This document shows positions 3,301 to 16,125 of a DNA stretch of 20,939 nucleotides, piece after piece (position 1 is the first letter of the stretch; every line of letters begins with the position of its first letter). The stretch is from a virus: the IMG/VR virus record IMGVR_UViG_3300010148_005382, positions 1 to 20,939 of that record; one strand, 5' to 3'. The position numbers and the translations under genes were made by a program. The notes beneath the pieces are model-generated. The model was not told where the DNA came from. It made no database searches and saw nothing but the letters and a program-made list of their open reading frames with translations.

Positions 3301-5377
3301 TAAATTCTGGATTTACTCTATAAGGACCATAAAGAAAACTATCATAAGGTTTATCAATATAAATTTTATTAAAAAATTTAAAAGGGTCTTGATTTTCAGT
3401 ACCTAATTTTAATTCTGCTAGAACATTAGAGTAATTAAATTTTTGATTTAATTTAAGTGGTTCTACAAATGAAATAGAATTAGTTTGCTTATATTCAAAA
3501 GTTGATAGTTGTTTTATAATTGTAACTAAATTTTTATCTATTCCTCTTTTTTGTGTTCTAAAAGCGTATTCACCTGTGTCGCCTCGATTTTTTAAAGTGG
3601 TAGATTTTTTAGCTTGATCTTTAAGAGCTATTAAGTAAAACCCATGGACCTTTTGTTGTAGATCGCCATTTAAATTTATTTCTGGGACTAAAAAATCAAA
3701 TACTTCTAATTTATCATTATTATTAGCAAGCACCTCTAAATCATTGCCAATACTAGTTGTAAATCTAAAAGAGTAATCAACAATTGAATTATAAGTAAAG
3801 CCTTCTACTTTTTTTGTAGGACCATCTGGGTCTAAAATATTAAAGTTTAAACCAGCCTGAGTTTCTAAAGGTCTATATATTAGGAATATTTCTTTATCTA
3901 AATTATTTAAAAAATTTGTAAAGGCTTCTTTCCAATCCTCGTTTAATTTTGAATTTATTATTGTGTCGCCATTATCTTTTTCTATAAAATCTCCAAGATT
4001 ATTAAGAGCTTTATTTACTAAATCTATTTGATATAAATTATCATTAGCATCATTACCCCTAGATGCTTCTTTTAAAGATACTAAATCTAAAAATTCAGAA
4101 CTTAGTATCTGCGATAGCATTGAAGATGATGACTTTACACCTTTGCCAAAATATTGCATATCTTCACCCTCTTCACCTTTAAAGAAAAGGCTGTTTTTAT
4201 CATTACCAAAAGCAAATAAAGATTTGTAATTTGTTGGAATGGCATCATCAGTTACATCATAAACAAAAATATCTTTAATTTTGAAAGTATTTGAAGCGCT
4301 TTGAGTTTGAAGGAATAGCTTATTGCCGTCATTTCCTAAAAACGTAAAGCTGAATGTCCCATTCGCTGAAACATTTGTGAAGCCTTCACTTGAAGCATTA
4401 AAAGGAAAACGTACTTTTATACTCCCCTCTACATAATCAAATACAGTAAACTCGACTCTGTACGTTTTAGTTGAATTACCCACTATATCAGCAGTGACAT
4501 CTTGAATGTATTGGTTTATACCCGCTCCATTAAATGTATAAATGCCATCAGCTAAACTTATAGTTGATGAATCACTTATATTAGCAGTTGTGTTAATAAC
4601 TGATATATTAGTTAAATCTGAATATATTAGATAATCTTTGATTTTAGCTTTAGTGACAACGTTTTCGTTTGTATCTCTTTCTAAAACACTTTTAACACCA
4701 GATTGATTTACTAGTTTTACATCTGCTGGAACTTTATTAAAATCTGTTAGCTCACTACCATCCTCTGGCCCCATGAAAAGACCAAACCTTGGAAAATCAT
4801 TTTTTACACTGACACATGTTCCATTTAATTTGCCCTTAGTTTCTTCATCATCGTCTTGTTTATAAGATACTCCTCCATATACAAATCCATTAGATGCATT
4901 AGAATTTGTATTGAAAGTGTGAACACTATCATCTCCAGCACCAAATTGAGACCAATCAGGAGCTATTAAACCTGCTTTGCCAGTAAAGTTTGTAAGTTGA
5001 CCATTTGGCTCTACTATTAAATCATCAGGATTAGAGTCTGCAAGATGATTGAAAAAATTAGTTAGGGTAATATCTCCAGTTATATCAGCTTGTGTTGAAC
5101 TGCCGTCTGCTATATTAACTTTAGATGAATCGCTTTTTAAACTTACTTGAACTGGTGAGTCATTTAAATAAATCCCTTGCAATAAATCTGGACCATTTAC
5201 AACTTCAGCATTTTTGTTTACTAAACCCTGTATCGGTCCATCGCTTATCAAATCTAAAGTTTCTAAAAAACTATATGATGCTCCATATTGCATCTCCCCA
5301 AGTTTAGGAGGTCTAAAAACTGGAGGACTGGCTTGGTTAGCTCCAGCAAATTTTGTTTTTTTATGTATATGTTTCAT
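311..5377 (-). CDS. J: Tail tip attachment protein, lambda gpJ-like (central fibre)
   Basis: This 1688-residue protein forms the central tip of a siphovirus tail and usually sets host range. The N-terminus (residues 15-80) has the PPVFRPP...LLDLISDGPIQG-type region and a GIYLNDSPV segment characteristic of gpJ. The central TipJ/phage-tail-3 region contains NPAWILYDLLTNKRYGLG, followed by a stretch around an RRRGVFKTRIQG motif and SLLYRPGDVIEVQDE, all typical of gpJ. The C-terminal part is rich in Gly, Ser, Thr and Asn, with a fibronectin-type-III-like segment near residues 1560-1670. Residues about 258-376 look like an inserted beta-sandwich module. It is longer than lambda gpJ (1132 residues). 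Its ATG shares one base with the stop of the gpI-like gene, giving translational coupling. Family assignment is strong; receptor identity is unknown. Confidence 0.93.
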   Translation of the reverse strand: MKHIHKKTKFAGANQASPPVFRPPKLGEMQYGASYSFLETLDLISDGPIQGLVNKNAEVVNGPDLLQGIYLNDSPVQVSLKSDSSKVNIADGSSTQADITGDITLTNFFNHLADSNPDDLIVEPNGQLTNFTGKAGLIAPDWSQFGAGDDSVHTFNTNSNASNGFVYGGVSYKQDDDEETKGKLNGTCVSVKNDFPRFGLFMGPEDGSELTDFNKVPADVKLVNQSGVKSVLERDTNENVVTKAKIKDYLIYSDLTNISVINTTANISDSSTISLADGIYTFNGAGINQYIQDVTADIVGNSTKTYRVEFTVFDYVEGSIKVRFPFNASSEGFTNVSANGTFSFTFLGNDGNKLFLQTQSASNTFKIKDIFVYDVTDDAIPTNYKSLFAFGNDKNSLFFKGEEGEDMQYFGKGVKSSSSMLSQILSSEFLDLVSLKEASRGNDANDNLYQIDLVNKALNNLGDFIEKDNGDTIINSKLNEDWKEAFTNFLNNLDKEIFLIYRPLETQAGLNFNILDPDGPTKKVEGFTYNSIVDYSFRFTTSIGNDLEVLANNNDKLEVFDFLVPEINLNGDLQQKVHGFYLIALKDQAKKSTTLKNRGDTGEYAFRTQKRGIDKNLVTIIKQLSTFEYKQTNSISFVEPLKLNQKFNYSNVLAELKLGTENQDPFKFFNKIYIDKPYDSFLYGPYRVNPEFKVQRIVSDTKSLSEFDFNTTISEDSIEGSTDLRTGKPLPADGFDAVSSRTNFLNYSDWADALNPSFDELSSPVTHTVYNPNIEEVFVTLDIQELRDTLHSEIKPVVLANEEEEAARKLGAGVNYPALLEVRVSTGLIDPKTNKKTRNGEVRDYHFVALVNSSVLVDLGNPESSPNDFPWVKLDSFKSSSTESKINTPIKLPPAIRVGAAGVGEGNEEVPHRYVEVEKISCETSSVLLTRSVSLSKVTEIIPVNLSYPFSAIIGTKLDSRSIDGVPTRNFDCKLKLIKIPSNYHPTKVNGQDKRYYTSVDEFNNTSDNDKIVYDGDWDGTFHDDLKWSDNPAWILYDLLTNKRYGLGEHVNENTINIWELYKIGRFCDAVNDDGAFVGVSDGQGGLEPRFACNIMFNNNEKIYDAIYQIAALFRGSIFFGDNQINFVDDRPRSPICLITNESVKGGMFNYSNNRRDEIFNTVEITYNDRFDNFLPKIETIEDEEDIRRRGVFKTRIQGVGMTSRGMARRAASHLLFHKVNENQTITFQAGLSSLLYRPGDVIEVQDELKSNLINFGRVLAVDADKQEIRISNSFDNTQMSGRLTLFNPTGIDTISDLNTISQKNRERAKSTFNISGDLASSSSTAVWTANFTGDYDFSGYRQGYTGNEGGFEEYATYTGTGSNILYFDTTLTGWVFATGNSFERDNDFAKFISATTTIGQNTKLQNFATGDLKNYDASASNNRGSNTFDLKGTFSGDFTNESFTNGILESEIDVNSPSQIDVVTITGSTVNQAYGTLVSGIEASKTGLLQNIKVGSPCSFQKSGASPITFKVLEIAEVNTNEFATVASLYESGKYDLIESDKSITTLSNTFSYQNASSQINQLIYHNLTPVTNLAIATGDVPEVGEFFVSGSWTDPNGSNATGYQAILLQNNFPTFARTENTFAVFSGLSEEVGTYSLRVKALGAGADNMSVLNAYYDSAFAVHNEFLVPEEGLTHDKSFLENFTIN

Positions 5378-6138
5378 TATAATACAAAAGAATTTGCTGA
5401 TATTGGAGCGTCTATATTTGTGCTTTTTGATATAAAAGTATTAGACTGGAGAGCTTTTTCATCAGGCACTATTAATGGAAATGATTTAATACATGACTGA
5501 ACAACCGCTGAGCCAACTTTTAATCTACCATAACCAATAGGCAAAAAAGATCCTTGTTGTGCTAAATTCGTCTTCGAAGAAAATATATAAGATTGAGTTA
5601 ATGCGTTGGCTACAGCGGAAATTTCTTGCTGGGCTGGCAAGCCTAAATCTGGTTTTGGTGCGAGCATAGAGGCTATAGCAGCTAAACCTACAGATTTAGC
5701 AATACTTCCAAAAACACCAGCTCCTTTTGCTGCTGTACCTGCTCCTGCTGCTGCACCTGCTCCACCACCTAAAGATCCAGTTAGTGCAGAAAACCCTGCA
5801 CTAAGCGTTTGTCCTACAAAAGATGTAACAGCAGTTATAGGTGCTAAAACTGCTGACACTACTGCACCTATAGCTGAGAAAATTCCAGCTCCTGCTATAG
5901 CTGGCACTAAATCAATTCTTTTTGGTTTTTCTTTTAAATCTTGGAAAGATTTAACTCTTTTTTTATTGACTATTATATCGTAAAAGAAACATTTGTTTTG
6001 TAAATTTATAAGCCTTGCCTTAAACCCTTGTCTATTACAGTCTATCGCATCTATCAAATCAGATGCATTTTTTAAGTTTAAACAAAAGAATTTTTGATAT
6101 TCTTTTTCTAAAATTCCATGTAAATATATTTTAGTCAT
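5377..6138 (-). CDS. I: Tail tip assembly protein, lambda gpI-like
   Basis: This 253-residue protein fits the lambda tail assembly protein I family, which acts with gpJ, gpK and gpL in forming the tail tip. Residues 1-75 form an N-terminal segment (starting MTKIYLHGILEKEY) like the ubiquitin-like start of this family. Residues 78-170 are a Gly/Ala-rich hydrophobic stretch (AGAGIFSAIGAVVSAVLAP and a run of Gly-Ala), also characteristic of gpI. The C-terminus has a conserved-looking FLPIGYGRLKVGSAVVQS block, common at the end of these proteins. The start overlaps the K-like stop by 4 bases (ATGA) and the stop overlaps the J start by 1 base. Its position between K-like and J-like genes matches lambda order. 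The long opposite-strand frame here is only a shadow of the alanine/glycine codons. Confidence 0.88.
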   Translation of the reverse strand: MTKIYLHGILEKEYQKFFCLNLKNASDLIDAIDCNRQGFKARLINLQNKCFFYDIIVNKKRVKSFQDLKEKPKRIDLVPAIAGAGIFSAIGAVVSAVLAPITAVTSFVGQTLSAGFSALTGSLGGGAGAAAGAGTAAKGAGVFGSIAKSVGLAAIASMLAPKPDLGLPAQQEISAVANALTQSYIFSSKTNLAQQGSFLPIGYGRLKVGSAVVQSCIKSFPLIVPDEKALQSNTFISKSTNIDAPISANSFVL

Positions 6139-6533
6139 AGTAAAGCCTTTATCCTTCCTAATGTATTTACATCTGAATCTGAATTTTGTGGTTCATAAAT
6201 ATGAACTTTTTGCGTATTTAAACTAAAAACTAAAAAAGGCAAACAAGCATTTTCAGCCATTTCTTTATCAAAATCTGACGGCTCTTCATCTCCGACTATG
6301 TGACTATGATATAAAGCTAGAATTGCATACTTCTCCTTAAATAATAAATATTCTAAAGGATCTACTAAAAAAAAAGATTGAGGATTATCAGAGGCGTTTT
6401 CGCTTTCTTTTACTACAAAAGTATTATCTTCAATGCAATGACCTAAAAAACCACATATTTCATATCTTAAGTTTTTATTACATAAGATTTTTATATGTTC
6501 TAAAGCTGCTTTTGGGGTTTTAAATTTTTTCAT
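6135..6533 (-). CDS. JAB1/MPN metalloprotease-domain tail protein, lambda gpK-like but JAMM-only
   Basis: This 132-residue protein carries a complete JAMM zinc metalloprotease motif. His-Ser-His is followed by seven residues, Ser, two residues and Asp (within YHSHIVGDEEPSDFD), with an upstream Glu in the YEICGFLGH segment. In lambda gpK this domain is followed by an NlpC/P60 cysteine peptidase domain. Here the protein ends soon after the JAMM domain and the NlpC/P60 part is absent; no frame in the neighbourhood supplies it. It lies between the L-like and I-like genes with 4-base overlaps at both ends, so the gene is intact rather than truncated by mutation. The expected role is processing or assembly at the tail tip. 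A peptidoglycan-cleaving role would need the missing domain. Confidence 0.85.
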   Translation of the reverse strand: MKKFKTPKAALEHIKILCNKNLRYEICGFLGHCIEDNTFVVKESENASDNPQSFFLVDPLEYLLFKEKYAILALYHSHIVGDEEPSDFDKEMAENACLPFLVFSLNTQKVHIYEPQNSDSDVNTLGRIKALL

Positions 6534-8437
6534 TGACCATATCCAAATCCATCTGTTCCTGGGAATCCTGCAAATCTAGGGTAGTAATAACTAGGGTTAG
6601 AAATAACTACTTCATCATTAAGGCTAACACTAAAAGATCCAGTTTCAAAAACTCCTGAACCACTTAAAAATATATTATTTTCATGTAAATCTTTTAATCC
6701 AGTATGATTATCAGGCAAAGCTCCAGTGGTCATGTCCCACCATGCAACTAAGTTTCCATCTCCACTTATCTTTTCAAAATCTCCAGTTAGCTCAGAATAA
6801 TTTCTCGGAATAAAATCAATAGTGTCTTTACTTGGGGTTATGACATCTTGGATTAAATATTTTTGTTCAATTTTCGTTAATTTTCTCTTCCATAGAGCGC
6901 ATGGACCTAAAGACCCATTTAATGACGCATGTTTACTATTGCCTAAATCAATACCTCCTATTGTAAAAGTTTCGGGTAAATTTACTCCTCTTTCAGTAGC
7001 TGGAGCTGTTTGAGCACTAAAAAACGTATCTGGTTTATCTATCGTAAAAGATGTTATTGATCGGCCATCAGCTGCATTTGGGAGACCTTTTTCATGAGTT
7101 ATAAAATAACAATCCCAGCTGGCTTCAACTGAGCCTACTATTTGCCTTTGTTCAGGATTTATATTTGGGTCATATGGGTTGAATCCAGAATAGCTAAATT
7201 GAATATCATCTATTCTACTAGCGTCTTGTGAGTCTACTCTACTTAAATTAAAGAATTTAAATTGATCATCTCTAGGAGTTGTGCTTACAATTGCTGATTT
7301 TTGACTTGAAGCAGCGTTACCACTTGCCCAAATCATAAGAGTAAAATCTCCAGTTAAAAATCCAGTTATATCTCCAGTGCTTGTAAATAATCCAGCTGAA
7401 TTTATTGAATCATTTTCATTTACAAATTTATTACCAAAAAATGACATTGTGTTAAACCCAGTAGGGTCTATTTCATCTTTTACATAAGTGTATTGGTTAT
7501 CTAAGTTAAATCTTTTTCTACATGCTGATAAATTTTTAGAACATACATCTTTTTGCCAAAACGATGGGCCTTCATTAGGATGTATTCCAGAATTATCATT
7601 AACAACAGATACATAAACAGTTTTTGAATCAATAAGTGATTCTGTCCTAGCTATTGTATTACTAGGATTAGGCATATTAGGTATTTTATTACCTTTTACA
7701 TAAACTATATCACCTTTGATGTATTCTCGATTAGGATTCCACTCAGCGTTAATATCATCAAAAAAATGCTTTTGACTATTACTTAGACCTCTATATATGG
7801 GTGTTACCGTATTGCCATCTGAATCTGTAAAAGGTTTACTACCTTCGGTTTCTATTGGTAAACCATAATATCTACAGCCCTGACCCCTGTATTTCCAAAA
7901 GCAATAACTTGATACGATAGCTCTATCATTTACATTAAATGATTCTACATCTAATGGTGAGCTAAGTTCAAATTCTACAAATAGTTTTGATTCTTGCGCT
8001 TTTCTACCTATGACATATTCTTCAGAGGATATGACAGCTGCTGCGTTAGCTGAACTCCAAGGATTCCCTCCATCAAAGTTTATATCATCTATATTTTTAA
8101 GAAAAGCTTTTTTTCTTGTTACTTTAGCATTAATAAAATCATTATAATTTTGTAATAATGCAGTTATTAAAAAATCTTTATTAGAAACCCTAATTTTAGG
8201 TCTTGGTAGTCTTTTATCGCCCAACATCTCAAAACCCTCAGACTCCATAGCTATTGGAGTATACTTATTACCCTGCCAAGTTATACTATCTCCAAACAAG
8301 CTACCATTATGGAAAAATACAGTTTCTGTTTTCTCTGTTTTTGGGTCTGTTAAAGCTATCTGGAAAAATTCTAAGATCGCAGTTGGCTGCAAATCTAATA
8401 AATTTTTTGCTACTATGTTTTTTCCTTCATCTGCCAT
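6530..8437 (-). CDS. L: Minor tail protein, lambda gpL-like, with extra carbohydrate-binding-like modules
   Basis: Residues 1-190 match the gpL family: an N-terminal segment with ILEFFQIALTDP, then SFNVNDRAIVSSYCFWKYRG. gpL binds an iron-sulfur cluster through four cysteines. Here Cys179/Cys188 and Cys299/Cys306 keep the within-pair spacings of 9 and 7 that I recall for lambda gpL. The pairs are 111 residues apart instead of about 23. The intervening piece (about 225-298) has the W...Y..GD.VY...P...W pattern of small chitin-binding modules (CBM5/12-like). Residues about 335-530 look like a LamG/concanavalin-type jelly roll (GDFTLMIWASG; LGPCALWKRKLT). At 635 residues it is far longer than lambda gpL (232). 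It is the first gene of the minus-strand operon, starting just downstream of a GTGTAA box. The modules suggest glycan contact at the tail tip, which is inference. Confidence 0.88.
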   Translation of the reverse strand: MADEGKNIVAKNLLDLQPTAILEFFQIALTDPKTEKTETVFFHNGSLFGDSITWQGNKYTPIAMESEGFEMLGDKRLPRPKIRVSNKDFLITALLQNYNDFINAKVTRKKAFLKNIDDINFDGGNPWSSANAAAVISSEEYVIGRKAQESKLFVEFELSSPLDVESFNVNDRAIVSSYCFWKYRGQGCRYYGLPIETEGSKPFTDSDGNTVTPIYRGLSNSQKHFFDDINAEWNPNREYIKGDIVYVKGNKIPNMPNPSNTIARTESLIDSKTVYVSVVNDNSGIHPNEGPSFWQKDVCSKNLSACRKRFNLDNQYTYVKDEIDPTGFNTMSFFGNKFVNENDSINSAGLFTSTGDITGFLTGDFTLMIWASGNAASSQKSAIVSTTPRDDQFKFFNLSRVDSQDASRIDDIQFSYSGFNPYDPNINPEQRQIVGSVEASWDCYFITHEKGLPNAADGRSITSFTIDKPDTFFSAQTAPATERGVNLPETFTIGGIDLGNSKHASLNGSLGPCALWKRKLTKIEQKYLIQDVITPSKDTIDFIPRNYSELTGDFEKISGDGNLVAWWDMTTGALPDNHTGLKDLHENNIFLSGSGVFETGSFSVSLNDEVVISNPSYYYPRFAGFPGTDGFGYGQ

Positions 8438-8513: not shown

Positions 8514-8780
8514 ATGAGTGTTATTTTTAGAGTAGTAGGGGCAAATGAAACTGTTAAAGATTTATTAAATGAAGATTTAAAAGTAGTTTCAAAAAGTAAA
8601 TCAGTTACAGGCTCAGTAATTTTTAATATTAAAAATGATGATAAAACTTTTACTTTTGAGCAAAAAGAGGTTGATTTTCATTCAGATTCAGTTCATTTGA
8701 ATGGTTTTTTATCAGATGGAAATGGAAATGTTGGAGTTGCTCAATTAAAATTTATACCTCAAACATACAATTGCCCTTAA
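8514..8780 (+). CDS. Hypothetical protein, 88 aa, beta-rich
   Basis: This is the first gene of the rightward unit, with ATG 29 bases after a GTGTAA box and no Shine-Dalgarno sequence. The product has alternating hydrophobic and polar residues (SVIFNIKNDDKTFTFEQKEV), suggesting a small beta-sheet protein. It has no signal peptide or membrane segment. Its stop is followed one base later by the start of the next gene, so it is probably cotranscribed with the spanin-like pair. I do not recognise the family. Its place between the tail-tip operon and the lysis genes fits either a small structural protein or an accessory of lysis; the sequence does not decide. Confidence 0.7.
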   Translation: MSVIFRVVGANETVKDLLNEDLKVVSKSKSVTGSVIFNIKNDDKTFTFEQKEVDFHSDSVHLNGFLSDGNGNVGVAQLKFIPQTYNCP

Positions 8781-8781
8781 G

Positions 8782-9054
8782 ATGGTCGGTTCAATAAAAT
8801 CAATTTTAAAATCTATAGAACTATATTTAACATTAAAAAATAAAAAATTTTACTATGAGTTATATAAAGAGTTTAAAGAGAGAGAGCAAAAGCTTGTGCA
8901 AGATATTGAGAACCTTAGGATTCGTGGTGATACCCATAGCGCTGACAGGGCTGACCTCTTGCGAGACTACCTCAACACCGAACGTAGGGAATTTGAACAT
9001 ATATCAGCCTTCTACTCTAAGATTACAGGAGGGGAAAACGATACAAACAATTGA
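8782..9054 (+). CDS. Coiled-coil protein overlapping a lipoprotein gene; i-spanin-position protein without clear membrane anchor
   Basis: This 90-residue, highly charged helical protein has its middle part (residues about 20-80) predicted by eye to be a coiled coil rich in Glu, Lys, Arg and Leu. About two thirds of the gene is overlapped in the +1 frame by a lipoprotein gene at 8855, the arrangement of lambda Rz/Rz1. Rz-type inner-membrane spanins start with a hydrophobic anchor. Here residues 1-30 (MVGSIKSILKSIELYLTLKN) are at most amphipathic. It may therefore be a divergent spanin subunit held by an amphipathic helix, or an unrelated small phage protein. Base composition rises in GC between about 8905 and 9000, as expected where two frames are constrained. 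Confidence 0.6.
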   Translation: MVGSIKSILKSIELYLTLKNKKFYYELYKEFKEREQKLVQDIENLRIRGDTHSADRADLLRDYLNTERREFEHISAFYSKITGGENDTNN

Positions 9055-9145
9055 CGGTATTTACACGCCACAAACCACTGAAATTTGGCACTCTGATACT
9101 AGATTTAGAAGATTAGAAAGACAAATTTACAATTCTAGTAAATAA
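8855..9145 (+). CDS. Lipoprotein embedded out of frame in the preceding gene; candidate outer-membrane spanin (Rz1-like)
   Basis: This 96-residue product has a lysine/arginine-rich n-region (residues 4-16), a hydrophobic core (17-33) and a lipobox LTSC with the acylated Cys at residue 36. The mature chain is about 60 residues, mostly polar. It begins inside the coiled-coil gene in the +1 frame and extends 91 bases past its stop. Embedded lipoprotein genes next to a holin and endolysin are the hallmark of o-spanins, which join an inner-membrane partner to disrupt the outer membrane. The mature part is less proline-rich than lambda Rz1. ATG 8855 is the only in-frame ATG that gives the complete signal. 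Lipoprotein call is strong; spanin role is inferred. Confidence 0.7.
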   Translation: MSYIKSLKRESKSLCKILRTLGFVVIPIALTGLTSCETTSTPNVGNLNIYQPSTLRLQEGKTIQTIDGIYTPQTTEIWHSDTRFRRLERQIYNSSK

Positions 9146-9148
9146 TTC

Positions 9149-9176
9149 TTGAAAAAGATTAAAGTTTGTTCATAAT
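9149..9176 (+). promoter_or_regulatory. Sigma-70-like promoter for the beta-barrel gene
   Basis: TTGAAA (9149-9154), a 16-base spacer and CATAAT (9171-9176) lie in the short gap before the beta-barrel gene. The -10-like hexamer is only 3 bases before ATG 9180 and 9 before ATG 9186. Transcription from it would give an almost leaderless message beginning near the second ATG. Confidence 0.45.
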
Positions 9177-9179
9177 TAA

Positions 9180-9872
9180 ATGATTATGAATAAAACATTG
9201 TTTAGTCTTTTGACTATATTGGGCATTGCATTTAGCAATGCAGGTACACAAGCGACCACATTAGCCGATAATATCGGTGTTAGTGGTGGTATTTCAGTTA
9301 GCAACTTCACTACAGATAGAGGTTTAGCAGTAAGAGAAGATTCATTTGATTACTCTCTTTCATTAACAGCTCCTCTTGCTGGTGGTGATTTTTCAATTGG
9401 CTTAGGGCTTGCCGATTCAGACGATGATACAGACGCATCATATTCTGTTTCTTACAGCAAACCAATTGAAGTTGCAGGGCAAAAACTTAAAGCAAAAGCA
9501 AGCTTCTCTGGTCTTGACTCTGTTTTCGGTGATCGTGAAGAAGTTGCGGTTGGTCTTACATACGGATACAGCCTTTTTGATGCATCAGCAGCAGTTTGGC
9601 ATGAGCTAGAGAATGATTGGTTTGGAGTTGAACTAGGCGTGTCACGCCCTGTTGGTACTCCAGTCAATGATCTTGTTGCAACCCCATTTCTCACTGTGAA
9701 CCTTGCAGATGAGTATACGGCTATAGAAGCTGGTGTTAAAGCTAGCTACCCTATTAGTGATCAGCTTTCTGTCTCAGCTAAGTTGTCATACAACAATAAC
9801 GACTTTGATAATTCATCTTTTAATGTCGAAGATGAGTGGATTATTGGCGCTGGATTGAAATATGATTTCTAA
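9180..9872 (+). CDS. Secreted outer-membrane beta-barrel-like protein
   Basis: This 230-residue protein has an N-terminal signal peptide (hydrophobic core residues 7-18, plausible cleavage after Ala21 or Ala25). The rest is a series of alternating amphipathic strands and ends in KYDF. A C-terminal phenylalanine after an alternating strand is the usual signal for outer-membrane insertion by the BAM machinery. The pattern resembles small bacterial beta-barrel families such as Gcw_chp. Codon use is visibly richer in GC than the neighbouring genes, suggesting recent acquisition from a bacterium. It has its own promoter-like sequence and a strong terminator, so it forms a single-gene unit inside the lysis region. 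Phage-encoded outer-membrane proteins can block reinfection or alter the host surface; that role is inference. Start 9186 (MNKTLFS) is equally plausible. Confidence 0.75.
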   Translation: MIMNKTLFSLLTILGIAFSNAGTQATTLADNIGVSGGISVSNFTTDRGLAVREDSFDYSLSLTAPLAGGDFSIGLGLADSDDDTDASYSVSYSKPIEVAGQKLKAKASFSGLDSVFGDREEVAVGLTYGYSLFDASAAVWHELENDWFGVELGVSRPVGTPVNDLVATPFLTVNLADEYTAIEAGVKASYPISDQLSVSAKLSYNNNDFDNSSFNVEDEWIIGAGLKYDF

Positions 9873-9900
9873 AATTTTTAGTATCAAATCAAATAAACTT

Positions 9901-9930
9901 AAAAAGCTCTCCGCAAGGAGAGCTTTTTTT
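9901..9930 (+). terminator. Rho-independent terminator after the beta-barrel gene
   Basis: The stem AGCTCTCC / GGAGAGCT is closed by a GCAA tetraloop (9913-9916) and followed by seven T residues. Flanking A and T runs extend the pairing. It lies 28 bases after the stop at 9872 and before the holin promoter region, isolating the beta-barrel gene. Confidence 0.92.
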
Positions 9931-9936
9931 GTGTAA
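9931..9936 (+). promoter_or_regulatory. GTGTAA box upstream of the holin
   Basis: GTGTAAGTAATAGTTAT immediately precedes the holin ATG, with 11 bases between box and start. It begins right after the T-run of the preceding terminator, where a new promoter is expected. It is the closest match to the sequence in front of the tail-tip operon. Confidence 0.45.
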
Positions 9937-9947
9937 GTAATAGTTAT

Positions 9948-10265
9948 ATGGAACCCGAAAAGTCTATTTTAAAAGAGTTTCTTAACGGAGGATGGCTTGT
10001 CCCACTAGTAGGAGCTGCTGCAATGTTTGCACGACTCCTATCTGGAGATAGTGGTTTATCGGTAAAACAACAGTTTAAAAGAATTTTGACGGCAGCTATA
10101 GCAGCAGGTATAGCATGGTTTGTGTTAGAGCAAACTGATGTATCATCTTTAACAAAAGCTATTGCTTACGGTATTATTGGAGTTGTAAGTCCTGAAGTCA
10201 TTGGAGGTATAGTTCGTCTAGGCCAAAAATTCGAAAAGAATCCAGAAAAATTTATAAAAAAATGA
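9948..10265 (+). CDS. Holin, LydA/phage holin 3 type
   Basis: This 105-residue membrane protein has about three hydrophobic segments (roughly residues 13-30, 45-62 and 69-88), a charged N-terminus and a lysine-rich C-terminal tail (GQKFEKNPEKFIKK). Size, topology and the NGGWLVPLVGAAAMFARLL opening resemble LydA-type and related class I holins. These form membrane lesions that release the endolysin at a set time. It is the first gene after a terminator and overlaps the start of the next gene by 4 bases. The endolysin follows one gene later, which supports the call. Its timing partner could be the 10262 product. Confidence 0.8.
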   Translation: MEPEKSILKEFLNGGWLVPLVGAAAMFARLLSGDSGLSVKQQFKRILTAAIAAGIAWFVLEQTDVSSLTKAIAYGIIGVVSPEVIGGIVRLGQKFEKNPEKFIKK

Positions 10266-10867
10266 GACCTAAGTTTATAGTTTATTGTTTATCTGCTATC
10301 TGTTTGCTTTTTGGACTAAAAGGCTTCGAGCTAAATAAAGATATACAGAAAACGCTAAAAGAAAATGCTCGACAATCAGAGTCTTCTATTATGGAGATAG
10401 GAATGTGTTTTGATTGGTACGGTGTAATAATAGTTAACTCTGTAATTAAAACATCTCATAGCACAATGACACCAGAAGAGATGATAGACATTTTAAAAGA
10501 GGAAAGCGGTTATAAAGATGAGTACTTAGAGGGATATAAAAAAGATATAACGCCAGATGAGCAAGAGTATGCTGATTTTGTATTTATACAAGAAAAAAAG
10601 ATAAATGCATATGTTAATGAATTAATTGAGTGGGCAGAAAAAGGGGATATAGAAATGATTAAAGCTTCTATACCTAGGATGTATGATATGACTGACCCCA
10701 CTATAGATGCCATAAATAATATTATGGACACAAAAATGTATTATAATGAAGAGCAATCAGAAATCCTAAATAAAAAAATAGACAGGTTTTCTGATTTTAT
10801 ATGCACTTTACTAGCTTTATGTTTTGTAATGTCCATATGCGCTTCATTTAGTAAAAAATGTAATTAA
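10262..10867 (+). CDS. Two-helix membrane protein with helical periplasmic domain, unknown function
   Basis: This 201-residue protein has a transmembrane segment at each end (residues about 5-22 and 178-196) and a long charged, mainly helical region between them. This topology places about 150 residues in the periplasm and resembles the sensor half of bacterial four-helix-bundle receptors, without any signalling domain. It overlaps the holin stop by 4 bases and ends 1 base before the endolysin start codon, so it belongs to the lysis transcript. An antiholin or lysis-timing role, comparable in position and exposure to T4 RI, is a reasonable hypothesis but no motif supports it directly. I do not recognise the family. 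Confidence 0.7.
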   Translation: MRPKFIVYCLSAICLLFGLKGFELNKDIQKTLKENARQSESSIMEIGMCFDWYGVIIVNSVIKTSHSTMTPEEMIDILKEESGYKDEYLEGYKKDITPDEQEYADFVFIQEKKINAYVNELIEWAEKGDIEMIKASIPRMYDMTDPTIDAINNIMDTKMYYNEEQSEILNKKIDRFSDFICTLLALCFVMSICASFSKKCN

Positions 10868-10868
10868 A

Positions 10869-11489
10869 ATGAATTTTAAAGGAAAAAAAGAAGTAGTAAA
10901 AGCTGTACAAAAATTATTAGGCGTTTCTGCTGATGGTGCAGATGGTCCTGTAACTTGGAACGCTATCTTAGCAAAATTATCTACTAAAGACACCCCAGCC
11001 TCAGATGGAAATATACCGCAAAAAATGGTTTCATTGGCTAGAGATGAGATAGGAGTTTCAGAAGTCGATGGTAGCAATTGTGGGCCGAGAGTAGATGAAT
11101 ACAAAGCAGCTACTTGGCTTGATCCAGATAAAGGTTGGCCTTGGTGTGCAGCTTTCATCTGTTGGTTAGTTAGAGAGGCTATCGATGGTGAGGATATAAA
11201 ATTTAAAAGACCAAGAACTGCTGGCGCATGGGATTTTGAGAATTGGGCTAAACAGCAGGTTGCAAATGGCATAGATCTTCGTAAACCAACAAATGGAAAT
11301 ATTAAAGCTGGAGATATAGTTGTATTTACATTTTCTCATATAGGTTTAGCTGTAAAGGATATAGACTCAAGCGGTTATGTAGTTACTATAGAGGGTAATA
11401 CAAATGGGGCTGGCAGTCGTGAGGGCGGGTCTGTTTTAGAGAAAAAACGCCACGTTTCTAAAATAAGGAGTAGGATAAGAATATTATAA
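10869..11489 (+). CDS. Endolysin: peptidoglycan-binding domain plus CHAP amidase/peptidase domain
   Basis: This 206-residue lysis enzyme has an N-terminal segment (residues 6-37; AVQKLLGVSADGADGPVTW) that is a short PG_binding_1-type domain with the usual DG..GP.TW signature. After a linker, residues about 50-206 form a CHAP domain. The catalytic Cys is Cys93 in WPWCAAF, the His is His157 in FTFSHIGLAV, and the following Glu175/Asn177 (IEGNTNG) complete the expected site. CHAP enzymes cut peptide or amide bonds in peptidoglycan. There is no signal peptide, so export should depend on the holin encoded just upstream. The domain order is unusual only in that the binding domain precedes the catalytic one, as seen in many Gram-negative phage endolysins. 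The gene starts 1 base after the preceding stop and lacks a Shine-Dalgarno sequence. Confidence 0.9.
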   Translation: MNFKGKKEVVKAVQKLLGVSADGADGPVTWNAILAKLSTKDTPASDGNIPQKMVSLARDEIGVSEVDGSNCGPRVDEYKAATWLDPDKGWPWCAAFICWLVREAIDGEDIKFKRPRTAGAWDFENWAKQQVANGIDLRKPTNGNIKAGDIVVFTFSHIGLAVKDIDSSGYVVTIEGNTNGAGSREGGSVLEKKRHVSKIRSRIRIL

Positions 11490-11541
11490 AAATATTTGAA
11501 GATTGAACTTACTTGTTTATTATTATATTTTGTATAATAAC

Positions 11542-11844
11542 ATGTCTGATAAGCACGAAATTTCAGTTAAAAAGGAGGATATATTTTTATTTGTTGTCGG
11601 CAACTCCATGTTCGACCCTATGGAAAAATGTATAGACTCTACAAGATATGAAGTGTTTGACACTTTCATTTATGACAATGAGGCTGATTATAAATGTAAT
11701 CAGGACGATACTTATTCAAGATTTTGTTGGGAAGTCACTAAATTAAAAAACAATGCTTCGAAAATGTCTAGAGATGAGATAGCTAGATTATGTGAAGAGA
11801 TAGAAGAAATCGCCCCTAAATTTGTCAATTTAAAATGCATTTAG
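11542..11844 (+). CDS. Hypothetical acidic protein, 100 aa
   Basis: I chose ATG 11542 (MSDKHEISVKKEDIFLF). The frame can be extended to a TTG at 11503, but that adds an AT-derived hydrophobic stretch and is unlikely. The product is small, acidic and soluble, with several Cys and Tyr residues and a Glu-rich helical C-terminal half. A TATAAT hexamer at 11533-11538 lies three bases before the ATG. The 3' end overlaps the pyrophosphatase start by 10 bases, so the two are probably translated together. I do not recognise a family and see no motif that suggests a link to phosphate metabolism. Confidence 0.65.
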   Translation: MSDKHEISVKKEDIFLFVVGNSMFDPMEKCIDSTRYEVFDTFIYDNEADYKCNQDDTYSRFCWEVTKLKNNASKMSRDEIARLCEEIEEIAPKFVNLKCI

Positions 11845-12437
11845 TAAATGATATACCTACAACTCATGATGATTATGATCATGTCAATTGCATTATAGAG
11901 ATACCTAAAGGAACTAACACAAAGTATGAGTATGATGAGAATTTAAATGTATTTAAATTAGAGAGATGCTTGGTCTCATCATTGCAATATCCAATTAATT
12001 ATGGTTTTATACCTCAAACTATTGCATTAGACAATGATCCTTTGGATGTTCTTGTTTTCAATCATGATCCAATCGATAGAGGTACTTTAGTAAGTTGCCG
12101 TGTACTGGGCATGCTTGGTTTTGAAGATGATGGAGAGATTGATAATAAATTGATAGCTGTTCCACATTGGTCGCCAAAAGATAAATACTCTAAGCTGCAT
12201 GATATTGAGTTATCACATTTAAAAATATTTAGACAGTTTTTTAAAATTTATAAAGTTGATAGAAAAACAGATACGAAAGTTGGAGATTGGAAAAGTTCAA
12301 CATCTGCCATGAAAGCACTCAAAGACTCACATGATCGTTGGGTCAAAGCCAACCAAGAAAGATTTCGTGAAGAATGGTCAGATAGACAATTTTGGTCTAA
12401 AATCAAAGAAAAAGGTTACATAGTTCAACCTGATTAG
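11835..12437 (+). CDS. ppa: Inorganic pyrophosphatase, family I
   Basis: It hydrolyses pyrophosphate to phosphate in the cytoplasm, pulling nucleic acid and nucleotide-sugar synthesis forward. The 200-residue length is normal for bacterial soluble pyrophosphatases. Active-site landmarks are all visible: Glu22, Lys30 and Glu32 in IEIPKG...KYEYD; Arg44; Tyr52/Tyr56 in YPINYGFIPQT; the signature DNDPLDV with Asp66, Asp68 and Asp71; the DDGEIDNK segment with Asp103 and Lys105; and Tyr139-Lys140 in FFKIYK. The enzyme should therefore be active. It is an auxiliary metabolic gene rarely carried by phages. Pyrophosphate released by phage DNA replication and by sugar-nucleotide enzymes could be its substrate. 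It overlaps the upstream gene by 10 bases. Confidence 0.93.
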   Translation: MHLVNDIPTTHDDYDHVNCIIEIPKGTNTKYEYDENLNVFKLERCLVSSLQYPINYGFIPQTIALDNDPLDVLVFNHDPIDRGTLVSCRVLGMLGFEDDGEIDNKLIAVPHWSPKDKYSKLHDIELSHLKIFRQFFKIYKVDRKTDTKVGDWKSSTSAMKALKDSHDRWVKANQERFREEWSDRQFWSKIKEKGYIVQPD

Positions 12438-12443
12438 GTGTAA
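12438..12443 (+). promoter_or_regulatory. GTGTAA box upstream of the 12471 gene
   Basis: GTGTAATTAATAATAAC begins at the last base before or just after the pyrophosphatase stop and lies 27 bases before the ATG at 12471. It shares the GTGTAATTA core with the copies near 13008 and 20213. The gene it precedes is a single-gene unit ending at a terminator. Confidence 0.4.
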
Positions 12444-12470
12444 TTAATAATAACAACCATTTAATATATT

Positions 12471-12662
12471 ATGGAAATACTACTTAAACTTATTGAAGAC
12501 AACCCTTGGTTTGGTGTTTTAACAGCGCTTGTAGCTTTTGCTTCTGCGGTCACTGCTGCTACACCTACTCCTAAGAAAGGATCAATCTGGGCTAAAATTT
12601 ACGCTCTTATAGATTGGGCAGCCCTTAATATTGGTAAAGCCAAGCAGAAGTCTGAGGATTAA
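12471..12662 (+). CDS. Small single-helix membrane protein, holin-like
   Basis: This 63-residue protein has one hydrophobic segment (residues about 13-31, FGVLTALVAFASAVTAATP), then TPTPKKG and a conserved-looking basic tail with DWAALNIGKAK. Small proteins of this form are common in marine and other environmental phages and are often labelled holin-like or left hypothetical. A second holin or lysis regulator is possible, but a dedicated holin is already present at 9948. It is preceded by a GTGTAA box and followed closely by a terminator, so it is probably transcribed alone or as the end of the pyrophosphatase message. Confidence 0.7.
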   Translation: MEILLKLIEDNPWFGVLTALVAFASAVTAATPTPKKGSIWAKIYALIDWAALNIGKAKQKSED

Positions 12663-12684
12663 TTCTAGACTAATTTCTTAGACA

Positions 12685-12714
12685 CCCCCTCCCCTTTGGG
12701 CTAGGGGGTTTTTT
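12685..12714 (+). terminator. Rho-independent terminator
   Basis: CCCCCT (12685-12690) pairs with AGGGGG (12703-12708). An inner CCC/GGG pairing has a TTT loop, and six T residues follow. It starts 23 bases after the stop at 12662 and separates the plus-strand genes from the convergent minus-strand gene. There is no T-run on the other strand, so it should act on plus-strand transcripts only. Confidence 0.88.
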
Positions 12715-12721
12715 AGCTAAT

Positions 12722-12985
12722 TTAAGCAGGAAAATTGCTAAAATTTCCTGTGCCTGTATATCTAGATCCAGCATCAAAAGGGCTTAGATAAAGTCCAGTT
12801 GGCAAATTCAAATCTGTTATTTTATCATTAAATTCTCTTATTACGTGATTTGAAAAATATACGTAATTTACTCCAGAACCGTTTTGACTTGCATATGCGC
12901 CAGTTACCTCAGTCCTGACACTAGCCCAATCACCAGAACCTGTTGACAAGTTTGAGTGAATTCTTTGTAGAAGGTCTCCCGCCAT
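12722..12985 (-). CDS. Hypothetical protein, 87 aa, isolated minus-strand gene
   Basis: This single minus-strand gene sits among rightward genes. The product begins MAGDLLQRIHSNLSTG and is soluble, rich in Gly, Ser, Asn and aromatic residues toward the C-terminus (YTGTGNFSNFPA). It has no membrane segment or signal peptide. A GTGTAA box lies 22 bases upstream and the gene converges on the terminator at 12685-12714. Strand, isolation and own control region fit a separately expressed accessory gene. I do not recognise a family. Confidence 0.6.
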   Translation of the reverse strand: MAGDLLQRIHSNLSTGSGDWASVRTEVTGAYASQNGSGVNYVYFSNHVIREFNDKITDLNLPTGLYLSPFDAGSRYTGTGNFSNFPA

Positions 12986-13007
12986 AATATATATAATTTA
13001 AATATAA

Positions 13008-13013
13008 TTACAC
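13008..13013 (-). promoter_or_regulatory. GTGTAA box upstream of the 12985 minus-strand gene
   Basis: Read on the minus strand, GTGTAATTATATTTAAATTA precedes the ATG of the isolated gene by 22 bases. The intergenic interval to the 13073 gene is short and very AT-rich. A TATAAT hexamer facing the other way lies at about 13059-13064, 8 bases before the ATG at 13073. Confidence 0.4.
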
Positions 13014-13072
13014 TTATTGTTGAAAATTTACTTAATAACAATAATATACATTTAAGTATATAATACATTTTT

Positions 13073-13300
13073 ATGAAAACTATTCAATACACAGAGAACG
13101 AATTAACAGTTTTAGTTCAGCTTCTAGACATAGCTGTAAAAGCTGGAGGTTTAAATGTCGCCGAGGCAGCTATTGCATTAACTAAAAAAATAGAAATGGC
13201 TGCTGCTCCTGACGATCAAATTGTTGAGCCATTTCTTGCTGAACCTGAATTAGTCCCAGACGAAGCAGGATCAGACGAAAGTTTAGAAGAAAATTCTTAA
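13073..13300 (+). CDS. Hypothetical acidic protein, 75 aa
   Basis: A small soluble protein. Residues 1-42 look helical (ENELTVLVQLLDIAVKAGG) and the last 30 residues are strongly acidic and disordered-looking (PELVPDEAGSDESLEENS). Similar short helical proteins with an opening like this are widespread in phages without known function. It starts behind an AT-rich region with a TATAAT hexamer 8 bases before the ATG. It ends just before an inverted repeat and promoter that serve the next gene. Confidence 0.65.
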   Translation: MKTIQYTENELTVLVQLLDIAVKAGGLNVAEAAIALTKKIEMAAAPDDQIVEPFLAEPELVPDEAGSDESLEENS

Positions 13301-13339
13301 GATTAGTCTTGACATAGGCATTTAGTTAAGTAATCTTAA
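13297..13339. promoter_or_regulatory. Promoter flanked by a 9-bp inverted repeat
   Basis: TTGACA (13309-13314), a perfect -35 hexamer, is followed after 16 bases by TAATCT (13331-13336) and 7 bases later by ATG 13344. TTAAGATTA (13297-13305) and TAATCTTAA (13331-13339) are perfect inverted repeats that flank the -35 and cover the -10. This looks like a regulated promoter for the plus-strand run that begins at 13344. Confidence 0.5.
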
Positions 13340-13343
13340 AAAT

Positions 13344-13685
13344 ATGTTATATTTATGCATATTTTTTGGATGGCTTATATTATTATTAATAATATTAAGG
13401 TTTTTTTCTGTTTGCTCAAATAAGTATCGCTCATTTGATAATATAACTTGGGAAGAAATAAAAGAACTAGATTTTTTTATTGATGATGAAGCAATAAAGT
13501 TTACAGGTTTAGATGATTGTATTACAGGCGTAGATCAAAGAGGTTTTTTGATTTATGAGTATGAAAAAATACTTAAATATTTTCAGGAAGAGGGGATGTC
13601 TTACGATGAGGCGGTGGAATATATAGATTTTAATGTTATAGGTATTAAGCCTGATAATTATACAATACATTATTCAAAACTTTAA
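13344..13685 (+). CDS. Membrane-anchored hypothetical protein, 113 aa
   Basis: It has an N-terminal membrane segment (residues 2-22, dominated by Leu and Ile) followed by a soluble acidic domain. The C-terminal part contains MSYDEAVEYIDFNVIG, a segment found in many small phage and bacterial proteins of unknown role; here it is linked to a membrane anchor. The N-terminus is likely an uncleaved anchor because no signal peptidase site is obvious. It stands first after a promoter-like sequence and ends directly against the next gene with no gap. Function unknown. Confidence 0.68.
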   Translation: MLYLCIFFGWLILLLIILRFFSVCSNKYRSFDNITWEEIKELDFFIDDEAIKFTGLDDCITGVDQRGFLIYEYEKILKYFQEEGMSYDEAVEYIDFNVIGIKPDNYTIHYSKL

Positions 13686-13979
13686 ATGGTGCATTTTAAA
13701 ATTTTAAAACTTGTGTACGCTGTAATATCTTTAATTGCAGGACTTACTGTAGGTCTTTTTGTTTCAGTTTTTATAGGTGTATTTACCACATTGCAAGTTT
13801 TTTTTCGATTTCCAATTAGAATTTACAATTCTTTAGTAGAAGCAGAAATAACCAGACTAAAATTAGAAGCATTTAACATTCAAACGCAATCAAACGAGGA
13901 TGAAGAAACAATGGCAGATAAGATGTGGGCGAGACATATCAGAAGGATGAATGAAAAAAAACAAAATAAAAATCTTTAA
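13686..13979 (+). CDS. Membrane protein with charged cytoplasmic tail, 97 aa
   Basis: One long hydrophobic stretch (residues about 8-40) could form one long helix or two packed helices. It is followed by a charged helical tail ending RRMNEKKQNKNL. It begins right after the stop of the 13344 gene, so the two are almost certainly expressed together and may form a membrane complex. No known domain is visible. A role in superinfection exclusion or envelope change during infection is possible but unsupported by motif. Confidence 0.65.
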   Translation: MVHFKILKLVYAVISLIAGLTVGLFVSVFIGVFTTLQVFFRFPIRIYNSLVEAEITRLKLEAFNIQTQSNEDEETMADKMWARHIRRMNEKKQNKNL

Positions 13980-14005
13980 GCCCCACTTAATAATAATAAA
14001 ATAAT

Positions 14006-14188
14006 ATGACGAATAAAACATTAGCCACAATTAATATACTTTGCATTGCATTCCCTATGGTATTGGGTGCGTTGGAAGTAATTTTAGAAAAACCGCTAAC
14101 ACATGGAGCATTAGTAGGGTTAGCAGGATTATTTATGATATTCTTTGGTATGTGGACTTCACTAAGATTATCTAAACAGCCAGATTAA
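14006..14188 (+). CDS. Small two-helix membrane protein, 60 aa
   Basis: Two hydrophobic segments (residues about 6-25 and 33-52) are separated by a short EKPLTHG loop, with a short polar tail. Size and topology resemble small holins or antiholins, but a better holin candidate is at 9948. It is followed one base later by another membrane protein gene. It has no Shine-Dalgarno sequence; the ATG follows an A/T-only run. Family not recognised. Confidence 0.65.
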   Translation: MTNKTLATINILCIAFPMVLGALEVILEKPLTHGALVGLAGLFMIFFGMWTSLRLSKQPD

Positions 14189-14189
14189 T

Positions 14190-14414
14190 ATGACATCTGT
14201 CAAAAAAATGAGAACTACTTTACTAGTTGGCATAATAGTGACGGTTGCAGTGTTTTTTGCTGTAGCCGTCACTTCTTTTCATGAAAGCCAAGATAATAAA
14301 GAAGAGTTTATGCCACCATTGCCACAAATATTAATACTTCCAGAACCGCCGCTAATAGAGCCTCCACAAAATTTACCAGATGTAAATCCATCTAATGGTC
14401 ATAATATAGCATAA
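14190..14414 (+). CDS. Membrane-anchored protein with proline-rich tail, 74 aa
   Basis: A positively charged N-terminus (TSVKKMR) leads into one membrane helix (residues about 9-28), then a periplasm-facing tail rich in Pro (PPLPQILILPEPPLIEPP). By the positive-inside rule the tail should be outside the inner membrane. Proline-rich tails on short anchored proteins occur in spanin-type proteins and TonB-like spacers. The position away from the lysis genes makes either link speculative. It lies between another small membrane protein and an HNH endonuclease gene, with 1- and 4-base gaps. Confidence 0.62.
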   Translation: MTSVKKMRTTLLVGIIVTVAVFFAVAVTSFHESQDNKEEFMPPLPQILILPEPPLIEPPQNLPDVNPSNGHNIA

Positions 14415-14418
14415 TTTT

Positions 14419-15249
14419 ATGAGAGAAGAAGAAAAAAGTATCTGTTGGTTAGGCGTAATCCCAGAATGTGATAAAGATAAGGTTCGTTATCCTACTGATG
14501 AGGAGATAAATCAATTTATAGAGGAAGCTGAGAACTTTATTGAGCAAGACCCTTTAGAAACTAGACCTTTAGTAACTAGAAATAAAATTTATAAAAATTA
14601 TCTTTTAAATACAGATGGAGACTTAGTAAGGAAATTTAAAAGCTCTACAAGAAAACTTAATAAGTTTCTAAAAACATACCCCAACAAAGCAGCCAGTAGA
14701 TATTATTGGCCTGTCTGTGATGAAGGCATTGATAAACAAGTTAGAGTAGGAGTTGTTAAAGCTCTAACTTTTCCTGAGTTAGTAGGTAGAAGCCCTTTAG
14801 TTCGTCATTTTAATTTGAAATATGGAGACGATATTCAGATTGTAACTGAGGACGGAACCGAACTAAGATTGATTGTTAGCTTGGATCATATTGATCGAAA
14901 CGAACAAAATGATGAATACAATAATCTTAGATTTTGCACTCATATAGAACAACATTTAAACACTGGTCCAAAAAACGGGTCAAAATTTAAAGGAGTTTCT
15001 ACTTTGCAAAATATTAAATCTAAGACATACAGGTGTAAGCTAGAGCTAAATCGTAGAACTAATAATCGATTTCTTGTAACTAAAAATTTCAAGATAGAGG
15101 AACAAGCAGCTACATATTATAACGATAAATTAAGAGAGATTTTAAAAAAATCATTTGGAAATAAATTAGGTCAAGAGCTGATTGATGAAGTAGCGTATTT
15201 TAATAATGTCATTCCAACGCAACAAGAATTAGATTTAGATATGTCATAG
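14419..15249 (+). CDS. HNH endonuclease with AP2 DNA-binding domain (homing-type)
   Basis: This 276-residue protein has an HNH_3-type nuclease core at residues about 150-182, with Asp156-His157, Asn169 and the final His/Asn in FCTHIEQHLN. Residues about 188-242 match the AP2/ERF-like DNA-binding fold (SKFKGVSTL...YRCKLEL...EEQAATYYND). HNH-AP2 proteins are typical free-standing homing endonucleases of phages. They cut at a target in relatives that lack the gene and drive its spread. The N-terminal 90 residues are acidic and not recognised. It lies just upstream of a second HNH gene and of the repeat-flanked glycan cassette, marking this zone as a hot spot for gene acquisition. The nuclease site appears intact. 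Confidence 0.85.
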   Translation: MREEEKSICWLGVIPECDKDKVRYPTDEEINQFIEEAENFIEQDPLETRPLVTRNKIYKNYLLNTDGDLVRKFKSSTRKLNKFLKTYPNKAASRYYWPVCDEGIDKQVRVGVVKALTFPELVGRSPLVRHFNLKYGDDIQIVTEDGTELRLIVSLDHIDRNEQNDEYNNLRFCTHIEQHLNTGPKNGSKFKGVSTLQNIKSKTYRCKLELNRRTNNRFLVTKNFKIEEQAATYYNDKLREILKKSFGNKLGQELIDEVAYFNNVIPTQQELDLDMS

Positions 15250-15261
15250 ATATGATATGTG

Positions 15262-15765
15262 ATGGGGTCTAAAAAAGTAAATGTTAATTGTTTATACTGT
15301 AAAAAAGAATTTATTGCTGAACTATCTAATTTAAAAAGAGGTCATGCCAAATTTTGCTCAAAAAGTTGCTCTTGTTCATACCAAAATGAAAATAGAAAAT
15401 TAATAAAAAAAAAATGTGAAGTATGTGGCAAAGCTTTTCAAACTAAATGCAGTCATGCGAAACATTGTTCAAGAAGTTGTGGTAACCGTAAGTCAAAAGC
15501 GACAATTAAAGCTGCTAGATCACAAGGTAAATATAGATATCATTTAAGTGCTGAGGTATACAAAGAATTTGGTGATTTGAAATGTTTTTATTGTGGATGG
15601 AAAAAAGATAAATGCGATATTCACCATATAGTACCAAGATCAAAAGGTGGAACAGATGAGTACAAAAACTTAACAATAGCTTGCCCAAACTGTCATAGGC
15701 TTATACATAAAGGTAAACTAAAAGTAGGATTAAATTTAGAAGATTATAAAAATGAATATAAATGA
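15262..15765 (+). CDS. HNH endonuclease with N-terminal zinc-binding cysteine clusters
   Basis: The protein has two N-terminal Cys-rich zinc-binding units: Cys10/Cys13 with Cys32/Cys36, and Cys52/Cys55 with Cys69/Cys73. A C-terminal HNH domain follows. In the HNH part, Cys108/Cys111 and Cys141/Cys144 hold a zinc, His121-His122 carry the catalytic His, and Asn136 and His145 complete the motif (DIHHIVPRSKGG...CPNCHRLIH). I chose ATG 15262; a GTG one codon earlier is possible. It overlaps the Nmad1 start by 14 bases. Function is DNA nicking or cutting; a homing or anti-competitor role fits its neighbour. Confidence 0.85.
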   Translation: MGSKKVNVNCLYCKKEFIAELSNLKRGHAKFCSKSCSCSYQNENRKLIKKKCEVCGKAFQTKCSHAKHCSRSCGNRKSKATIKAARSQGKYRYHLSAEVYKEFGDLKCFYCGWKKDKCDIHHIVPRSKGGTDEYKNLTIACPNCHRLIHKGKLKVGLNLEDYKNEYK

Positions 15766-16093
15766 ACTATTAGAAATCCATGAAGACACTTGTTCCAAGT
15801 GCAAATCAATCATGGTAAAGAAAAATAATGATTATACTGGTGGCAAAACAGCCAATGATATCTTTGCCAACTTTAACTCATCAAAGATAATAGGCTTGCA
15901 CCCAGTCAAAGGTTTACTGATAAGAGTGATAGACAAAATACAAAGAATAAATTCTTTCACTAACGACAAAGAATTATCCGTGTCGAACGAGACAGTTGAA
16001 GATGCTTGTGATGATATTGTAAACTATGCTATCTTAGCTAAAGCTATGCTAATTGAGGAAAGGTCCAAGATCGAACGAAATAAAGCCAAATAA
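15752..16093 (+). CDS. Nucleotide modification associated domain 1 (Nmad1/DUF1599) protein
   Basis: This 113-residue protein shows the Nmad1/DUF1599 pattern: KKNNDYTGG near residue 25, DIFANFN near 36-42, the core GLLIRVIDKIQRI near 54-66, and an ETVEDACDDIVNYAILAKAML helix. The family is found in phages, often beside genes for modified DNA bases, and is related in helical fold to MazG-type nucleotide pyrophosphohydrolases. A role in hydrolysing or sorting nucleotides is plausible but not proved. The last ten codons lie within the first copy of the AGATCGAA-N11-CAAATAA repeat, whose CAAATAA includes the stop codon. This makes the gene's 3' end resemble an insertion site for the downstream cassette. 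Confidence 0.82.
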   Translation: MNINELLEIHEDTCSKCKSIMVKKNNDYTGGKTANDIFANFNSSKIIGLHPVKGLLIRVIDKIQRINSFTNDKELSVSNETVEDACDDIVNYAILAKAMLIEERSKIERNKAK

Positions 16094-16095
16094 GT
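16063..16095 (+). repeat. Cassette-flanking repeat, copy 1 (left)
   Basis: AGATCGAA (16068-16075), 11 non-conserved bases, CAAATAA (16087-16093). It is preceded by GTCC and followed by GT. It covers the end and stop codon of the Nmad1 gene. Two further copies with the same 11-base spacing lie at the other end of the glycan cassette. Confidence 0.75.
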
Positions 16096-16125
16096 TGAAA
16101 ATTTGAAAATAATATTTAGTATACT
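16095..16125 (+). promoter_or_regulatory. Candidate promoter for the glycan cassette
   Basis: TTGAAA (16095-16100) and TATACT (16120-16125) are separated by 19 bases, longer than ideal. The -10-like hexamer lies 3 bases before the ATG of the SGNH gene. This is the only gap (35 bases) between the Nmad1 gene and the cassette, so a cassette promoter must lie here or upstream. Confidence 0.35.

Follow-up and report, generated by a model that had tools for sequence, protein, structure and literature searches.

The DNA analysed here (the window) is a 20.9-kb IMG/VR virus record, in which end repeats were searched for and none were found, often a sign that a record is a fragment. Lambda-like tail tip genes of the J, I, K and L types occupy the minus strand (311–8437). 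From position 8514 the plus strand carries, in this order, p88, an Rz-like gene, an Rz1-like gene, a barrel gene, a holin-like gene, p201, a CHAP endolysin gene and a pyrophosphatase gene. The Rz-like candidate (8782–9054, plus strand) lies directly 5' of the barrel unit in a syntenic position and overlaps the Rz1-like gene (8855–9145, plus strand), which is read in another frame and encodes a lipoprotein with the lipobox LTGLTSC, read by eye. Family searches gave no match for either product, and the two were assigned as spanins from gene position, overlap and lipobox. The holin-like membrane protein (9948–10265, plus strand) was identified from weak holin family matches and its position, and the CHAP-domain endolysin (10869–11489, plus strand) from family matches. 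With a spanin-like pair before it and a holin-like gene and endolysin gene after it, the barrel gene does lie inside a lysis module, as a reading of the sequence alone (hereafter the sequence-only reading) had proposed.

Other genes of the window were also noted. Between holin and endolysin, p201 (10262–10867, plus strand) encodes a predicted periplasmic protein with two transmembrane segments, modelled with AlphaFold2 as a long four-helix bundle with hydrophobic ends (pLDDT 87). The fold resembles the domains with which chemoreceptors and NarQ bind ligands in the periplasm (best TM about 0.5–0.6, Foldseek E > 0.1), and p201 could be an antiholin or a lysis-timing sensor. The inorganic pyrophosphatase gene (11835–12437, plus strand; NCBIfam PRK01250, E 9e-40, below that family's cut-off) adjoins the lysis genes and is kept in many relatives. 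Further downstream, a gene run at 16129–19818 has by eye a sugar or surface-glycan look, its products including UDP-galactopyranose mutase-like and glycosyltransferase-like proteins.

The barrel open reading frame (9180–9872, plus strand) was confirmed. Since position 9180 is GTG or AGG in relatives, translation probably starts at ATG 9186, giving a protein of 228 aa (9186–9872; 230 aa with the ATG at 9180 as start). An AlphaFold2 model built with 30 homologues had a mean pLDDT of 88, with 12 strands spanning residues 33–229 and low confidence in the signal region (1–27). In the homologue alignment the C-terminal end reads G225-x-x-Y-x-F230, F230 being invariant and G225 nearly so; a G-x-x-aromatic-x-F terminus is expected of BAM substrates. 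The signal peptide, beta-strands and terminal Phe described from the sequence alone are thus upheld by the model and by conservation, and the barrel prediction proposed there as a check returned a 12-strand barrel. By prediction and conservation the protein combines a signal peptide, an even number of strands and a C-terminal aromatic beta-signal, as an outer-membrane barrel should. Upstream lies a sigma70-like promoter (TTGAAA-16-CATAAT, 9149–9176, plus strand) that matches 10 of 12 positions, with its -10 box ending 9 nt before ATG 9186. Downstream lies an intrinsic terminator (GCTCTCC-GCAA-GGAGAGC-T7, 9901–9928, plus strand), a hairpin with a GNRA (GCAA) loop and a T7 tail, which, given its A/T-symmetric stem, is possibly bidirectional. 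That the unit and the barrel have the anatomy described here is nearly certain.

To see how widely the gene is kept, related loci were collected with the endolysin and the holin as anchors, two sets that share contigs and were not chosen by the barrel. The barrel gene was present in 70 of 73 usable endolysin-anchored loci and in 60 of 63 holin-anchored loci. In a tree of the Rz-like, holin and endolysin proteins (76 distinct rows, barrel-anchored loci included), the four rows without a barrel fell at two separate places, both well supported, so that two losses are the simplest reading. In L186 and L188 promoter, barrel and terminator are all absent, a T-run is left, and about 66 nt separate the Rz1 stop from the holin start; their identity to the window is 59–82% for tail L, spanins and endolysin and 72–89% for the pyrophosphatase. 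In L083 and L087 the barrel gene is lost and the terminator kept. Gene order upstream of the holin differs in L099 and L190, and the L024 barrel runs against the direction of its spanins and holin. The barrel is therefore an old, near-core gene of uncultured marine phages that has been lost in two lineages.

Among 15 long related contigs, all with the cassette, the lambda-type tail gene L (PF05100) was found in 2 and not in the other 13, and no contractile sheath was detected in any of them. Since the barrel occurs with and without a detectable tail L, it looks not to be tied to one receptor. Integrase genes of the tyrosine type were sought in 18 related records of up to 109 kb, which may be incomplete, and none was detected. 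On this result the phages are likely lytic, and expression of the barrel in lysogeny is doubtful.

Promoter conservation was assessed in 83 distinct upstream sequences. A match of at least 9 of 12 positions was present in 92% of them, compared with 18% of shuffles, and of at least 10 of 12 in 81%, compared with 3% of shuffles, which confirms the earlier suggestion that the gene has a promoter of its own. It was also seen in relatives whose spanins are hundreds to about 2000 bases distant. Of the 75 relatives that have the promoter, 74 place the end of the -10 box 6–11 nt from the barrel ATG, and a Shine-Dalgarno-like motif is absent upstream of that ATG in 81 of 82. This spacing, together with the missing motif, predicts an mRNA that is probably leaderless, or nearly so. 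Across the window from 8514 to 20745, a Shine-Dalgarno-like motif was seen at just 1 of 21 checked gene starts, and translation initiation in this phage seems mostly independent of it.

In many relatives (L021, L028, L030, L039 and L049 for example) the promoter spacer contains the exact palindrome ATTACAN4TGTAAT. It occurs exactly once, at the barrel promoter, in 42 of 148 loci, and long records (up to 109 kb) hold one copy each in 9 of 15. With at most one mismatch it was present in 41% of upstream sequences, compared with 0.1% of shuffles. Because it is placed between -35 and -10, the palindrome looks like a repressor operator. At the barrel promoter of the window it has 4 mismatches, and weaker matches in the window are at chance level; the putative operator is accordingly claimed for other clades only, the clade of the window being without the palindrome.

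A hairpin followed by a T-run was present in 70 of 70 distinct barrel–holin gaps, a count made without a shuffle control, with stems of 9–15 bp and a G/C core in which the sequence varies and the pairing is kept. The strong GCAA-loop terminator recognised from the sequence alone is in place, and a terminator hairpin is general at this site; like the promoter, it is conserved whether the spanins are adjacent or distant. In 101 distinct sequences no promoter matching at least 10 of 12 positions was found within 75 nt of the holin start, so the lysis genes rely on transcription from upstream. A natural deletion of the barrel gene in L083 has left the terminator and a promoter-like scar (5580–5660); from this deletion, the terminator itself may be selected for holin expression.

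These observations could be taken to mean that the barrel is a lysis accessory, conditioning the outer membrane together with the Rz1-like lipoprotein, or that the unit throttles holin transcription and thereby lysis timing. The gene is always beside spanin or holin genes, the holin has no promoter of the kind searched for, and the terminator is both universal in the gaps and kept in L083 after barrel loss. Yet L186 and L188 presumably lyse without promoter, barrel and terminator, and L024 has its barrel on the other strand from holin and spanins; we consider a lysis role unlikely. Less probable again is a wider version, in which promoter, barrel and terminator form an integrated lysis control unit. 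Here an operator-regulated leaderless barrel and a terminator that meters read-through into a promoterless holin–sensor–endolysin operon would couple outer-membrane conditioning to lysis timing, and in many clades the operator would let a host or phage regulator time the barrel.

The base composition of the gene was compared with that of its genome. Gene GC is higher in the barrel (0.403) than in the window (about 0.32), as the sequence-only reading had noted in calling the codon use GC-richer than that of the neighbours. At fourfold-degenerate sites, however, the barrel GC of 0.17 equals that of the genome (0.16 in holin and endolysin, 0.13 in J and L), and a foreign codon use was rejected on these values. 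Given its amino acids, the GC3 of the barrel is modestly high (z = 2.4–3.3), and C-ending codons make up 24 of 65 two-fold codons (0.37), compared with about 0.2, and 0.38 in the pooled homologues. The GC excess is due to the first two codon positions of an Ala-, Gly- and Asp-rich barrel and to the C-ending two-fold codons. As the homologues show the same compositional shift, it is no sign of foreign origin, and the bias towards C-ending two-fold codons would reflect selection for high expression.

The sequence-only reading had interpreted the gene as a moron, and had named as a point against this the finding that homologues occur only as core phage genes of matching composition. Its own promoter, its own terminator and the losses among relatives stand. 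Recent acquisition is not supported, since the gene is near-universal and has genome-like fourfold sites, and the state named as contrary is nearly what was found, the gene being near-core. A recently acquired bacterial moron with foreign codon use could draw on the separate promoter and terminator, the empty sites in near relatives and the higher gene GC. Against it are the near-universal, syntenic distribution and the tree, in which the pattern is one of two losses and not of recent gains; a single scan of 84,980 species genomes with a degenerate pattern also found no bacterial relative. We regard recent acquisition as very improbable. Many homologues are present in IMG/VR, and all barrel homologues found come from viral contigs; the window protein and three divergent homologues had no match in 50,697 phage records. 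A host guess by way of the pyrophosphatase gave no match, and literature searches found no paper on the barrel gene.

Family searches tied the barrels, taken as a family, weakly to MipA/OmpV (PF06629): of 30 members of the barrel family, 20 match it at E<=0.01, and the three members tested exceed its gathering score (31.0, 27.2 and 26.9 vs 24.2 bits). The window protein stays below this cut-off (19.4 vs 24.2 bits), and E. coli MipA aligns with the last 45 columns only, at a probability of 23%. The cyanophage outer-membrane protein of PF24653 and phrog_417, likewise a marine phage outer-membrane barrel, gave a weak, partial match (16.8 bits against a cut-off of 27; phrog_417, E 0.027). Membership of MipA, OMP_b-brl, Phage_OMP, PHROG and PADLOC families was rejected for the window protein, which fell below the cut-off or had no match.

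Structural comparison placed KdgM first (Z 17.8, 4fqe), followed by NanC (15.7), Tsx (15.7), VhGalP (15.1) and PcoB (15.0), all small-solute channels; the same list includes autotransporter domains (about 14–15) and OMPLA (13.6). KdgM and NanC share with the barrel a 12-strand fold and a similar size, at about 11% identity, and the KdgM family was absent from the Pfam matches. The 12-strand fold by itself does not reveal function. OMPLA-type phospholipase, also of 12 strands, was set aside as one of many similar barrels, and by eye the conserved WHE motif around W140 does not resemble its His-x-Ser pair. The extracellular loops of the model are very short (2–11 residues). W140, G149, S155, E183 and K201 do not vary among homologues, E151 and N174 hardly do, and strand alternation, read from the sequence, suggests that the conserved residues point into a Ser/Gly-lined lumen.

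Selection was estimated from 11 close relatives. The barrel has a pN/pS of 0.195, close to the Rz-like protein (0.199) and above endolysin (0.102), p201 (0.070) and holin (0.031); it is thus under purifying selection that is looser than on holin, p201 and endolysin. Loops L1, L3 and L5 are among its most conserved parts, with an entropy of 0.68–0.95 against 1.2–1.6 in most strands. Barrel distances follow those of the spanins (r 0.64) more than those of tail gene L (r 0.39), a comparison confounded by linkage.

These data bear on superinfection exclusion or receptor masking, according to which the barrel would occupy or alter the site of the same or competing phages in the outer membrane and so prevent wasteful re-adsorption to infected cells and debris. 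Its surface location, its apparently early or host-type promoter and its dispensability would suit such a role, as would a protein that changes faster than holin and endolysin. The short loops and the conservation of L1, L3 and L5, unlike what is usual in an arms race, speak against it, as does the closer tracking of spanins than of tail L, with the linkage noted above. Conserved loops and lumen residues speak for a functional lumen or rim more than for a variable surface with a masking role.

Known phage systems were compared with the barrel. The closest is the NmpC/Lc porin, a lambdoid phage outer-membrane barrel gene beside a holin–endolysin–spanin cassette, as here; prophage DLP12 of E. 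coli K-12 shows the gene order quuD(Q)-nmpC-essD-rrrD-rzpD/rzoD. The present barrel gene likewise adjoins a holin gene, in the position of a lysis-slot porin. NmpC belongs to the large trimeric general-porin family, a different class from the present barrel of 12 strands and about 228 aa, and it is carried by a temperate phage and inverted relative to the lysis genes, whereas here no integrase was detected and the barrel is mostly co-directional with the holin. Phage PA-2 carries the related porin Lc, which is linked to exclusion at OmpC. Lambda Lom, of the Ail-OmpX type, is a small phage-encoded outer-membrane barrel of a temperate phage; it has 8 strands compared with 12 here and lies near tail genes, the present gene being in the lysis region, and Ail_Lom was absent from the Pfam matches. 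A lytic phage provides a further precedent in T5 Llp, an outer-membrane exclusion protein acting on FhuA (PMC9586334), which may share the function of blocking reinfection but is a small periplasmic lipoprotein and not a barrel. With NmpC/Lc and T5 Llp on its side and the loops against it, exclusion is possible but doubtful.

The conserved loops and lumen residues led us to rank a channel or permeability role first, followed by superinfection exclusion and then by a lysis accessory. It is very likely that the barrel is made in the infected host and inserted into its outer membrane. In the mechanism we propose, host sigma70 RNA polymerase would read the strong barrel promoter during infection, with transcription starting on the ATG or just a few bases ahead of it, and the resulting abundant, near-leaderless, single-gene mRNA would stop at the terminator that precedes the holin. 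After export of the product by Sec, the BAM complex would fold it into a 12-strand barrel in the host outer membrane, which would act there as a narrow solute channel or a membrane-remodelling protein that alters the permeability of the infected cell. The nearest structural neighbours, the very short loops, the conserved residues assigned to the lumen, a promoter at a conserved short distance from the ATG and a terminator that are kept whatever the spanin adjacency, codons that fit high expression and the presence of the gene with or without a detectable tail L are all consistent with this. Conversely, many 12-strand barrels, OMPLA and autotransporter domains among them, are not channels, the rest of the cassette gives no hint of uptake, the conserved charges could close the lumen, and two lineages do without the gene. 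We therefore put forward a channel or permeability function as the main role only tentatively.

Outer-membrane proteins carried by phages have been known mainly from the conversion genes of temperate enteric phages. The barrel gene described here is near-core and separately controlled, and it belongs to the lysis module of marine phages that are uncultured and apparently lytic. The 50,697 phage records hold no cultured relative, and no PHROG family clearly fits the barrel. Natural deletion variants allow the hypothesis to be tested, and regulation can be approached through the conserved putative operator and the predicted leaderless mRNA. The finding suggests that, as a regular part of their life cycle, these phages remodel the outer membrane of the infected host.
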